Shown here piece by piece: positions 23,196 through 27,021 of a stretch of DNA of 64,000 nt. The DNA is from Fidelibacterota bacterium (lineage in GTDB: Bacteria > Pseudomonadota > Alphaproteobacteria > Rhodospirillales > Rhodospirillaceae), in NCBI GenBank assembly GCA_947472795.1, contig CANJBL010000001.1:310001-374000 (forward strand), read 5' to 3'. The number at the start of each line of letters is the position of its first letter. Position 1 is the stretch's first letter. The notes under the pieces are model-generated. The model did no database searches, was not told the DNA's origin, and worked only from the letters and a program-made list of their open reading frames with translations. A program made the translations under genes and the position numbers.

Positions 23196-24167
23196 ATGTC
23201 TCAGAAGTTCTGGTTATCAGCGGTTGCGCTTGGAGGATGTCTTGCGCTTGGCGCTGTTGGACTCCTTGGTTCAACGCATTACCAGCAAGCCTGTAAGATC
23301 CCAAGTGAAGAACGCTCTTCCGAAGCCAGCAATACCCCAAATAAAACAAGCAGTGAGTCTGATGTCTTCGAGCGCATCGCACGGTCGCTTGAAGTAATAA
23401 GCGCCGCAGCCGATACCCCGGAAAAGGCGGAGCGCGAAATAGCAGACTTGATTGCCCAGCAGGATATGGCCTGCTGGGCGTATTGGATGGTTCTAATAAG
23501 CTCTGCTCAGGCTGTTGTTGGAATTTTTGGCCTCGCGGCTCTGATCGTGACCGTAAGGCAAGGACAACGGGCGCTTAGAATTGGCCGTGATTCTATAAAG
23601 GCCGCAAGACAGAGCACTGATGCTACGATTTCTAAGGATCGGGCCTTTGTCTTTGTTGACAACATAGAAGTTCATCAGATCACTGACGAACATAGAACGA
23701 AGGTGCTGAGTTATTACGCCGTCGTTCGGTGGAAAAACGCGGGGACCACCCCAACAAAAGCCTTTCGCAATTGCGTCAATATCCGGCTCTGGCCCGATCC
23801 GCTTCCAGAAGACGCTCTTAAATTCGAATGTTATGCGAAAGAATTCACGAGGGCCGTGATAGGGCCGGGAGCCACAATTAATTCTGGCGGCCTTCCCATA
23901 GAGTTTTCCACAGCCATGGCCGCTTATCAGGACCAAGAGCGAATGAAGTGGCATCTTTTGGTTTGGGGATGGTGCGAATACAACGACGTTTTCATAGGGA
24001 CTCCTCGGCACAGAACTGAGTTCTGCCGTAAAATACTCGTCAACGTTCATCCGGAGAAATTGGAGGGGAACTTGGGCATAAAACATTTCCCATTCACCAA
24101 GTATAACAACACCGACGATGAGTGTGTGCATCCGCTTGCAACAAATCCACCAAACGACGGTAGTTAG
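23196..24167 (+). CDS. Unknown two-helix membrane protein in an AT-richer insert
   Basis: I do not recognise a named family. The 323-residue product has hydrophobic segments at about 6-25 and 94-120. A Ser/Glu-rich polar stretch lies between them, and after the second helix comes a large soluble domain beginning RQGQRALRIGRDSIKAARQSTDATISKDRAFVFVDNIEV. This layout recurs among uncharacterised bacterial membrane proteins. Base composition differs from its neighbours: three 60-base lines I counted gave 57%, 45% and 42% GC, against more than 60% around it. Codon use is also less GC-biased, suggesting recent acquisition. ATG at 23196 has a weak ribosome-binding site. It separates mscS from the damaged comM. 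Confidence 0.7.
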   Translation: MSQKFWLSAVALGGCLALGAVGLLGSTHYQQACKIPSEERSSEASNTPNKTSSESDVFERIARSLEVISAAADTPEKAEREIADLIAQQDMACWAYWMVLISSAQAVVGIFGLAALIVTVRQGQRALRIGRDSIKAARQSTDATISKDRAFVFVDNIEVHQITDEHRTKVLSYYAVVRWKNAGTTPTKAFRNCVNIRLWPDPLPEDALKFECYAKEFTRAVIGPGATINSGGLPIEFSTAMAAYQDQERMKWHLLVWGWCEYNDVFIGTPRHRTEFCRKILVNVHPEKLEGNLGIKHFPFTKYNNTDDECVHPLATNPPNDGS

Positions 24168-24342: not shown

Positions 24343-25776
24343 ATGGTCGCGCATATCAACACGGTGGCCTTTTCCGGCATCGATGTGCTGCCGATAGAAG
24401 TGCAGGTGGCCATTTCCGGCGGCTTGCCCACCTTCACCATTGTTGGTCTTCCAGATAAAGCCGTGGGTGAATCGCGCGAGCGCGTGCGTGCGGCCCTGCA
24501 CGCCATTGGCCTCGCATTGCCCGCCAAGCGCATCACCGTCAACCTGGCGCCCGCCGACGTGCAGAAGGAAGGCAGTCACTTCGATCTGCCCATCGCGCTC
24601 GGTCTGCTGGTCGCCATGGGGGTTGTGCCCATGGAAGACATGAGCCAGTTCACGGCGCTGGGCGAGCTTGGCCTCGATGGCTCCATCGCACCCGTGGCCG
24701 GCGTGCTGCCTGCGGCCCTTGGCGCCAACGCTGCAAACCGCGGGCTCATCTGCCCCGGCGCGCAAGGCGGCGAAGCGGCTTGGGCGGGCGGTGCGGACAT
24801 TCTCGCGCCGCGTTCCCTTCTTGAACTCATCAACCACTTCAAAGGTGTCAGCGTTCTTTCGAGCCCAACGCCCGCCGAGCCCCGCGCCGATACCACCTTC
24901 CTCGACCTGAAGGACATCAAAGGTCAGGAGACCGCCAAGCGCGCCGCCGCCGAAGCCTTGGAAGTGAGCATGATCCATTCCGTCGCCGGGCAGTTGGCCG
25001 GCGGCAGCATCATGCGCCAGCGGCCTTTCCGCGATCCGCATCATTCCGCGTCCACGCCGGCGCTGGTCGGCGGCGGTTTGCGCGTGAAGCCGGGCGAGAT
25101 TTCCTTGGCGCACCGTGGCGTGCTGTTTCTGGATGAGTTGCCAGAGTTTACCCGCGCCGCACTCGAAGCTTTGCGTCAGCCCTTGGAGACGGGGCGCGTC
25201 GTCATCGCGCGCGCCAACGCCCATGCAAGTTACCCCGCGCGCTTCCAGCTCATCGCCGCCATGAACCCCTGCCGTTGCGGGTACCTCGACAATCCGCAGC
25301 TAGCCTGCAGCAAGGCGCCCAAGTGCGGCGGGGAGTATCAATCGCGCATCTCGGGCCCGCTATTTGACCGCATCGATCTGCATGTGGATGTGCCCGCTGT
25401 CGATCCCCTGGATCTTTCGGCGCCCGCACCGCAGGAAGACACGGCGACCGTTGCCGCGCGCGTCGCACAGGCGCGCGCGATCCAAACCGCGCGCTACGAA
25501 AAATACGCGGGCGATGACATGCGCGCACCCACGTGCAATGCCGAGGCCGACGGCGACATTCTGGAAGCTGTCGCCGCACCCGACGCCGATGGCCGCGCTT
25601 TGCTCACACAAGCCGCCGATAAAATGCACCTGTCGGCACGCAGCTATCACCGAATCTTACGTGTCGCGCGCACCATCGCCGACCTGGACGGGAGCCAGGG
25701 TGTAAAACGCGCCCACATTGGCGAGGCTTTGGCTTACCGGCGCATCGTGCCGGGACGTACACTCGCTGCCGAATAG
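24343..25776 (+). CDS. comM: ComM/YifB-family Mg-chelatase-like AAA protein lacking the Walker A region
   Basis: The family is a hexameric AAA+ helicase-like protein; ComM helps branch migration during natural transformation. The N-terminal LonC-like domain (FSGIDVLPIEVQVAISGGLPTFTIVGLPDKAVGESRERV) is intact, as are Walker B (GVLFLDELPEF near 258-268), MNPCRCGY and the C-terminal domain. However, the sequence runs from DLKDIKGQETAKRAA directly into AEALEVSMIHSVAGQL. The expected segment of about 35 residues with the GPPGxGKS/T P-loop is missing, in frame. The 477-residue length is correspondingly shorter than usual members (about 500-510). ATP binding should be lost. Start ATG 24343 has GAGGGTG upstream. 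Confidence 0.88.
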   Translation: MVAHINTVAFSGIDVLPIEVQVAISGGLPTFTIVGLPDKAVGESRERVRAALHAIGLALPAKRITVNLAPADVQKEGSHFDLPIALGLLVAMGVVPMEDMSQFTALGELGLDGSIAPVAGVLPAALGANAANRGLICPGAQGGEAAWAGGADILAPRSLLELINHFKGVSVLSSPTPAEPRADTTFLDLKDIKGQETAKRAAAEALEVSMIHSVAGQLAGGSIMRQRPFRDPHHSASTPALVGGGLRVKPGEISLAHRGVLFLDELPEFTRAALEALRQPLETGRVVIARANAHASYPARFQLIAAMNPCRCGYLDNPQLACSKAPKCGGEYQSRISGPLFDRIDLHVDVPAVDPLDLSAPAPQEDTATVAARVAQARAIQTARYEKYAGDDMRAPTCNAEADGDILEAVAAPDADGRALLTQAADKMHLSARSYHRILRVARTIADLDGSQGVKRAHIGEALAYRRIVPGRTLAAE

Positions 25777-26421: not shown

Positions 26422-27021
26422 GTGGTGCTCGTTTCCAGAACATTATTGGCTTTGGTCAGCTTTGCCGCCGCGTTCGGTGTTGTGAATGCCCGCGCCGACG
26501 AGCGTTTGAGCATGCCGCAATTTCCCAATGGCTGGGTCGAGATTTTCACGCAGCAAGGCACGCAGGAGCGCGTGGAATATGCGCCGCTCGGCCAAACGGC
26601 GGCCACCTGGCAGCGCAAGATCACCATCGAGGTCTATCACGACTTCAAAAACCTGCCGCTGGACGCCTTGCAGCGCCGCGCCGTCGCGCAGAACCATGAT
26701 GCGTGTGTGGGCGTTGTGGAGGGCAAGTTCCAATCGGGGATGAACAACGGCTACTCTTCCGCCTTCTGGACCTTGGGCTGCAAGCGCAACAAGGCGACGG
26801 GCCTGGGCGAGACGCGCTACACCAAAGCCATTCAGGGAGCTGGCGGGCTTTACATCATAAGCCAGACATGGCGCACCCCGCCTTTCGACAAGGACGATCC
26901 CGCTATCGGCGCGCAAGACTTGAGCGCAGGCATGACCTTCCTCACAAGCTCTGTGGTCTGCGATACAACGTCGGCAAAAAGCCCATGCCCGCCGGAAAAT
27001 CCGGCAGCGCAGCGGCGCTGA
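26422..27021 (+). CDS. Conserved-looking exported protein of unknown function
   Basis: A 199-residue protein with an N-terminal signal peptide (about 1-25, cleavage near NARADE). The mature part begins LSMPQFPNGWVEIFTQQGTQERVEYAPLGQTAATWQRKITIEVYHDFKNLPLDAL. Several cysteines (ACVGVV, LGCKR, VVCDTT, SPCPPE) could form periplasmic disulfides. I do not recognise a characterised family. GTG at 26422 is the likely start, immediately followed by a second GTG. It converges on the HIT gene with 5 bp between stops. Confidence 0.65.
   Translation: MVLVSRTLLALVSFAAAFGVVNARADERLSMPQFPNGWVEIFTQQGTQERVEYAPLGQTAATWQRKITIEVYHDFKNLPLDALQRRAVAQNHDACVGVVEGKFQSGMNNGYSSAFWTLGCKRNKATGLGETRYTKAIQGAGGLYIISQTWRTPPFDKDDPAIGAQDLSAGMTFLTSSVVCDTTSAKSPCPPENPAAQRR

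Follow-up and report, generated by a model that had tools for sequence, protein, structure and literature searches.

The closest described system to the locus analyzed here is ComM (YifB), an AAA+ branch-migration helicase that acts in recombination during natural transformation, represented by the family model TIGR00368 and by the Legionella pneumophila structures 8rxd, 8rxk, 8rxs and 8rxt. L. pneumophila ComM binds its nucleotide through Walker A residues 218-225, including K224 and T225, and through M226, and Vibrio cholerae ComM is quoted as hexameric only with ATP and ssDNA (PMC11612176). Loss of comM in nature is documented for Acinetobacter baumannii, with natural inactivation of comM in 22% of strains (PMC11472951) and interruption of the gene by AbaR islands (PMC7508600). 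The gene is also a target of mobile elements: Tn6022 and Tsy are described as targeting comM through TnsF (PMC10293859), and for large serine recombinases 12.4% of the predicted site-specific integrases target genes annotated as magnesium chelatase/ATP-dependent protease (PMC10083194), which on our reading are the ComM family. Searches of the literature on serine recombinases or integrases together with comM or magnesium chelatase returned nothing relevant by title beyond the PMC papers cited here.

The window, that is, the whole stretch of 64,000 nucleotides analyzed, comes from a bacterium that is probably an alphaproteobacterium and carries an open reading frame of this family that has no P-loop. 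The features of the region are as follows.

23196..24167, plus strand: neighbouring ORF of lower GC content, 323 aa, no family match (from the ORF, its GC content and searches)
24343..25776, plus strand: comM/yifB ORF without P-loop, 477 aa plus stop
24400..24759, plus strand: ChlI/Lon-like N domain, PF13541, residues 20-139 (Pfam match)
about 24943..24951, plus strand: deletion junction GCC GCC GCC, 36 codons (108 bp) missing compared with homologues (sequence and alignments)
24946..25404, plus strand: remaining part of the Mg_chelatase AAA+ domain, PF01078, residues 202-354, profile positions 51-203 (Pfam match)
25117..25137, plus strand: GVLFLDE, residues 259-265, which we take to be the Walker B region (sequence and alignment)
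25435..25740, plus strand: Mg_chelatase_C domain, PF13335, residues 365-466 (Pfam match)

The 477-aa protein scored 450.6 bits against TIGR00368, above the curated cut-off of 362.4, and 333.6 bits against the narrower equivalog NF007365, below its cut-off of 530. The PF13541 and PF13335 matches were both over cut-off, and the Pfam Mg_chelatase match begins at profile position 51. Homology to ComM/YifB extends over both sides of the gap, and the protein shares with the family its domain order, Walker B, CRCG cysteines and C-terminal domain; it differs in having no Walker A, 36 residues being missing in all. Residues D264, E265, N308, C310, C312, R433 and R437 were invariant in a 16-row alignment. 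Of these, D264 and E265 presumably belong to Walker B, N308 is presumably the sensor asparagine, C310 and C312 the CRCG cysteines and R433 and R437 the late arginines. The reading frame is open, with no further stops or frameshifts, in agreement with the expectation that all regions other than Walker A would be intact.

At the junction the protein reads KGQETAKRA followed by AAEALEVSMIHSVAG. In the relative G018 the missing stretch comes after KGQETAKRA. Alignment with 17 homologues, and again with 15 others partly from the same genomes, showed that 36 residues, or 108 bp, are missing. The original prediction, that a ComM/YifB protein had lost its Walker A region in frame, thus held in its coordinates, frame and junction; the loss itself stands, and only its estimated length of about 35 residues (105 bp) has to be corrected. 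Reading through all 477 aa revealed no GK[ST] loop or Walker A motif (GPPGxGKS/T) elsewhere in the protein. The P-loop gap is a true feature of the assembled sequence.

The assembly comprises 3,217,315 bases in 51 contigs and is 96.86% complete. ORF 24343-25776 was the only ComM/YifB detected in it; the only other Mg_chelatase match is weak and lies on contig C7 in a gene that we take from its sequence to be clpX. With no second, intact comM found in the assembly, it is unlikely that the short protein acts as a dominant-negative variant on a partner ComM, as had been suggested.

The short form was searched for among 60 relatives, 18 of them congeners. Together with the genome of the window, 57 of these 61 genomes had a comM match, as did all 19 genomes of the genus. 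Full-length relatives gave two matches meeting at about query residues 201-209, whereas the gene of the window gave a single match over residues 1-477. A full-length open frame was present in 12 of the 18 congeners (G002 to G008, G010, G012, G014, G016 and G018), and all 12 keep the P-loop. The motif GxPGxGKS was likewise found in 80 of 80 loci from a separate collection (63 through the context filter of a script and 17 read from the printed list), these being the best 80 among 574 loci at which a relative is encoded; three of them (L053-L055) belong to the congeners G018, G005 and G003 and had already been counted. In a sample of 199 genomes of the order, which includes the genome of the window and some of the 60 relatives, a 56-residue query spanning the junction matched 157 genomes at 1e-8 and left 42 without a match. 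The junction occupies residues 19-21 of this query, and among the matches listed every one except that of the gene itself begins at residue 17-22. The short form was therefore not seen in the 60 relatives, in the best 80 of 574 loci or among the order-sample matches listed. The gap looks private to this gene.

The original prediction had noted that the junction is a short repetitive run compatible with deletion by slippage or microhomology. In the relatives GCC-rich codons lie at the right edge of the gap and in some of them at the left edge too. In G018, the highest-scoring relative, a perfect 10-bp direct repeat GCGCCGCCGA with a spacing of 111 bp flanks the P-loop region. This repeat was not found in the other four of the five relatives scanned for repeats: G011 has a 6-bp repeat at the 111-bp spacing and none was listed there for G007, G016 and G010. 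Moreover, the 10-bp repeat predicts a loss of 111 bp and not of 108 bp, so that either an offset join or an ancestor differing by one codon is needed. The observed join consists of three GCC codons with 108 bp gone and, worked out by hand, about 5 bp shared. The 108-bp loss fits a join shifted by one codon within this GCC run, and the frame is kept by either route. The short-repeat character of the junction is thus borne out by the G018 repeat and the GCC run, but a simple repeat story is not, given the four relatives that lack the 10-bp repeat. The deletion may have formed by a join within GCC-rich short repeats: one event between such stretches flanking the codons of the P-loop would have removed 108 bp, taking the Walker A loop together with its immediate neighbours in the protein, and would have kept the frame by chance.

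We consider it likely that comM has lost its function naturally at this locus, probably in recent time, through one frame-keeping deletion of 108 bp. The main alternative is that the gap arose in assembly, or from a mixture of strains, so that the organism or most of its population would have an intact comM and reads were joined across the P-loop region. The genome is a draft in 51 contigs, and both the private state of the gap and the lack of decay are what an artefact would show. In addition, comM of the congener G001 is split over two contigs whose 141-bp overlap falls exactly in the P-loop region, as assemblers leave at branching points. Against this, the junction lies far inside a contig of 441,778 bp, the frame is kept and the repeats at the junction are only 5-10 bp long, much shorter than the words usually used in assembly. 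We therefore regard an artefact as unlikely.

The selection acting on the remainder of the gene was determined with a two-ratio codon model on 18 sequences, including that of the window, in which the branch lengths other than its own were scaled together from an IQ-TREE fit. Being broken or incomplete, the comM genes of G001, G009, G013, G015 and G017 did not enter the set, and the stop codon of G011 was masked. Omega was 0.050 on the gene's own branch and 0.063 elsewhere; equality with the background was not rejected (2dlnL 0.95), whereas omega = 1 was (2dlnL 129.3). The profile of omega for this branch spanned about 0.03-0.08, both values being just outside the 3.84 limit. By part, omega was 0.039 in the N domain and 0.058 in the rest. 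Of the 239 columns invariant in the 17 other sequences, 5 were changed in the short protein; the same count for the others ranged from 0 to 11. The remaining domains are thus under ordinary constraint with no decay. The branch is long, however, at about 0.73-0.79 substitutions per codon, so that a short neutral period would be invisible. Should neutrality have set in with the deletion, simple arithmetic, with no fitted model behind it, puts the neutral period at roughly 3-5% of the branch at most. The proposal that the protein is a dead remnant accordingly appears likely only as a recent event; a decayed pseudogene does not fit the lack of relaxed selection.

Ordinary constraint on the rest of the protein means either that the deletion is recent or that the remainder still has a role. 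The latter would be the case if a P-loop-free ComM had been kept by selection for an ATP-independent job of its Lon-like and C-terminal parts, still binding recombination intermediates or partners without translocating. The low omega of the branch, with no relaxation in either half, and the number of changed invariant columns, inside the range of the other sequences, agree with such a form. A recent deletion predicts the same constraint, however, no relative examined shares the short form, the assembly has no partner ComM with which it could build mixed rings and the genus tolerates the loss of comM; we hold a selected P-loop-free ComM to be very improbable. Were it kept, the same deletion would also have removed the stretch in which a congener has an integrated serine-recombinase element.

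Breaks in comM were not confined to the gene of the window. Visibly broken genes were present in four of the 18 other species of the genus. In G013 (L033:2124-8092) about 6 kb is inserted right before the P-loop, within the stretch missing from the short gene. The insert codes for a 531-aa large serine recombinase, which has Resolvase, Recombinase and zinc-ribbon domains, and also carries a helix-turn-helix gene and an IrrE-like gene. In G015 (L037:6189-7778) comM ends after AAMNP, a site different from that of G013, beside another large serine recombinase gene. In G009 (L036:5429-5860) a deletion has left roughly the first 34 comM codons, now joined to the downstream gene, a relative of window 26422-27021. 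In G011 (L046:5560-5600) comM is full-length except for a TAA within its AAA+ domain. Two further genes were counted neither as broken nor as intact: that of G017 is cut by contig ends, and that of G001 (L034 and L035), which lies on two contig ends sharing 141 bp, has an insertion of odd residues directly behind the P-loop helix and perhaps reflects a strain mix. Counting the gene of the window, 5 of the 19 genes in the genus are thus broken, 2 fall in neither class and 12 are intact. Three congeners (G018, G005 and G003) are metagenome bins, so that single breaks may be errors. Loss of comM is tolerated in this genus, and the gene is one that is lost often.

The described comM-targeting elements have in common with the locus that the ATPase-motif region is a place of disruption, and serine-recombinase genes stand at the breaks in the congeners G013 and G015; in contrast to those systems, the window's own comM shows no element. 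The short gene might in principle be a scar left when an element once integrated in the Walker A region was lost imprecisely, as the position of the G013 insert within the missing stretch would allow, but no element remnant lies at the junction and the genome has only two resolvase-family matches, whose open frames of 201 and 227 aa mean that no large serine recombinase was found in it, which makes this origin extremely improbable. A recent deletion, our preferred reading, makes the locus a non-insertional case of comM loss. As in A. baumannii, comM is lost or interrupted in naturally occurring strains; it is mostly insertions that are described there, whereas the gene of the window has a small internal in-frame deletion. 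Together with the broken genes of its congeners, the locus suggests that the Acinetobacter pattern, repeated loss of comM with the uptake genes remaining, also occurs outside Acinetobacter.

Irregular comM loci were also observed outside the genus tally. In G033 (L040:6887-7036) and G040 (L041:3348-3476) a second comM 5' end of 43-50 codons precedes the full gene by about 1-2 kb, an arrangement that a partial duplication or an element integrating at the start of the gene would leave. In G029, of the same family (L038:4161-5627), the comM matches lie in pieces in different frames.

The ORF at 23196-24167 next to comM had been pointed out as an AT-richer inserted gene, and its lower GC content is real: 50-53% in 500-base windows against 58-67% around it. 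It sits between mscS and comM, which are 1252 bases apart in the window; in the relative loci the distance between the ends of the mscS and comM matches is 30-142 bases in 8 genomes and 410-890 in 4. A search of 19 relative loci at 1e-6 gave no match to the ORF, which also had no plasmid or phage match at 1e-5 and no Pfam or NCBIfam match at 0.001. Among the 60 relatives it had one match, in G018, with 30% identity over residues 131-312. The repeats flanking the insert are short and mostly imperfect, and no link between the deletion and the inserted gene was found.

The expected effect of the deletion was judged from the alignment of the short protein with the L. pneumophila ComM chain, which runs up to position 208 and resumes at 240. 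The nucleotide contacts at 218-226 therefore fall inside the gap. On this comparison the short ComM should not bind ATP as ComM does, and neither ATP binding nor ring formation is expected of it. Since ComM rings form around DNA with nucleotide, no branch-migration helicase is expected either, and the product would keep the Lon-like N domain and the C-terminal domain. In structure prediction with 16 sequences, the pLDDT of the core was below 50 in the short protein and in the intact control (L053 first) alike; the same core region failed with AlphaFold in the control as in the short protein. A clean in-frame deletion of the P-loop offers a natural allele with which to ask if any ComM function survives without ATP binding.

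Other genes of transformation are present in the genome, where ComEC (open frame of 715 aa), two DprA-family genes (373 and 342 aa) and RadA (496 aa) were found over cut-off. The cell would thus keep its DNA-uptake genes (ComEC and DprA) and RadA and lose the help of ComM in integrating transforming DNA. The second DprA-family gene and a resolvase-family gene are separated by about 2 kb (G000:C11:58334-60960; L135, L139), perhaps in a mobile region.
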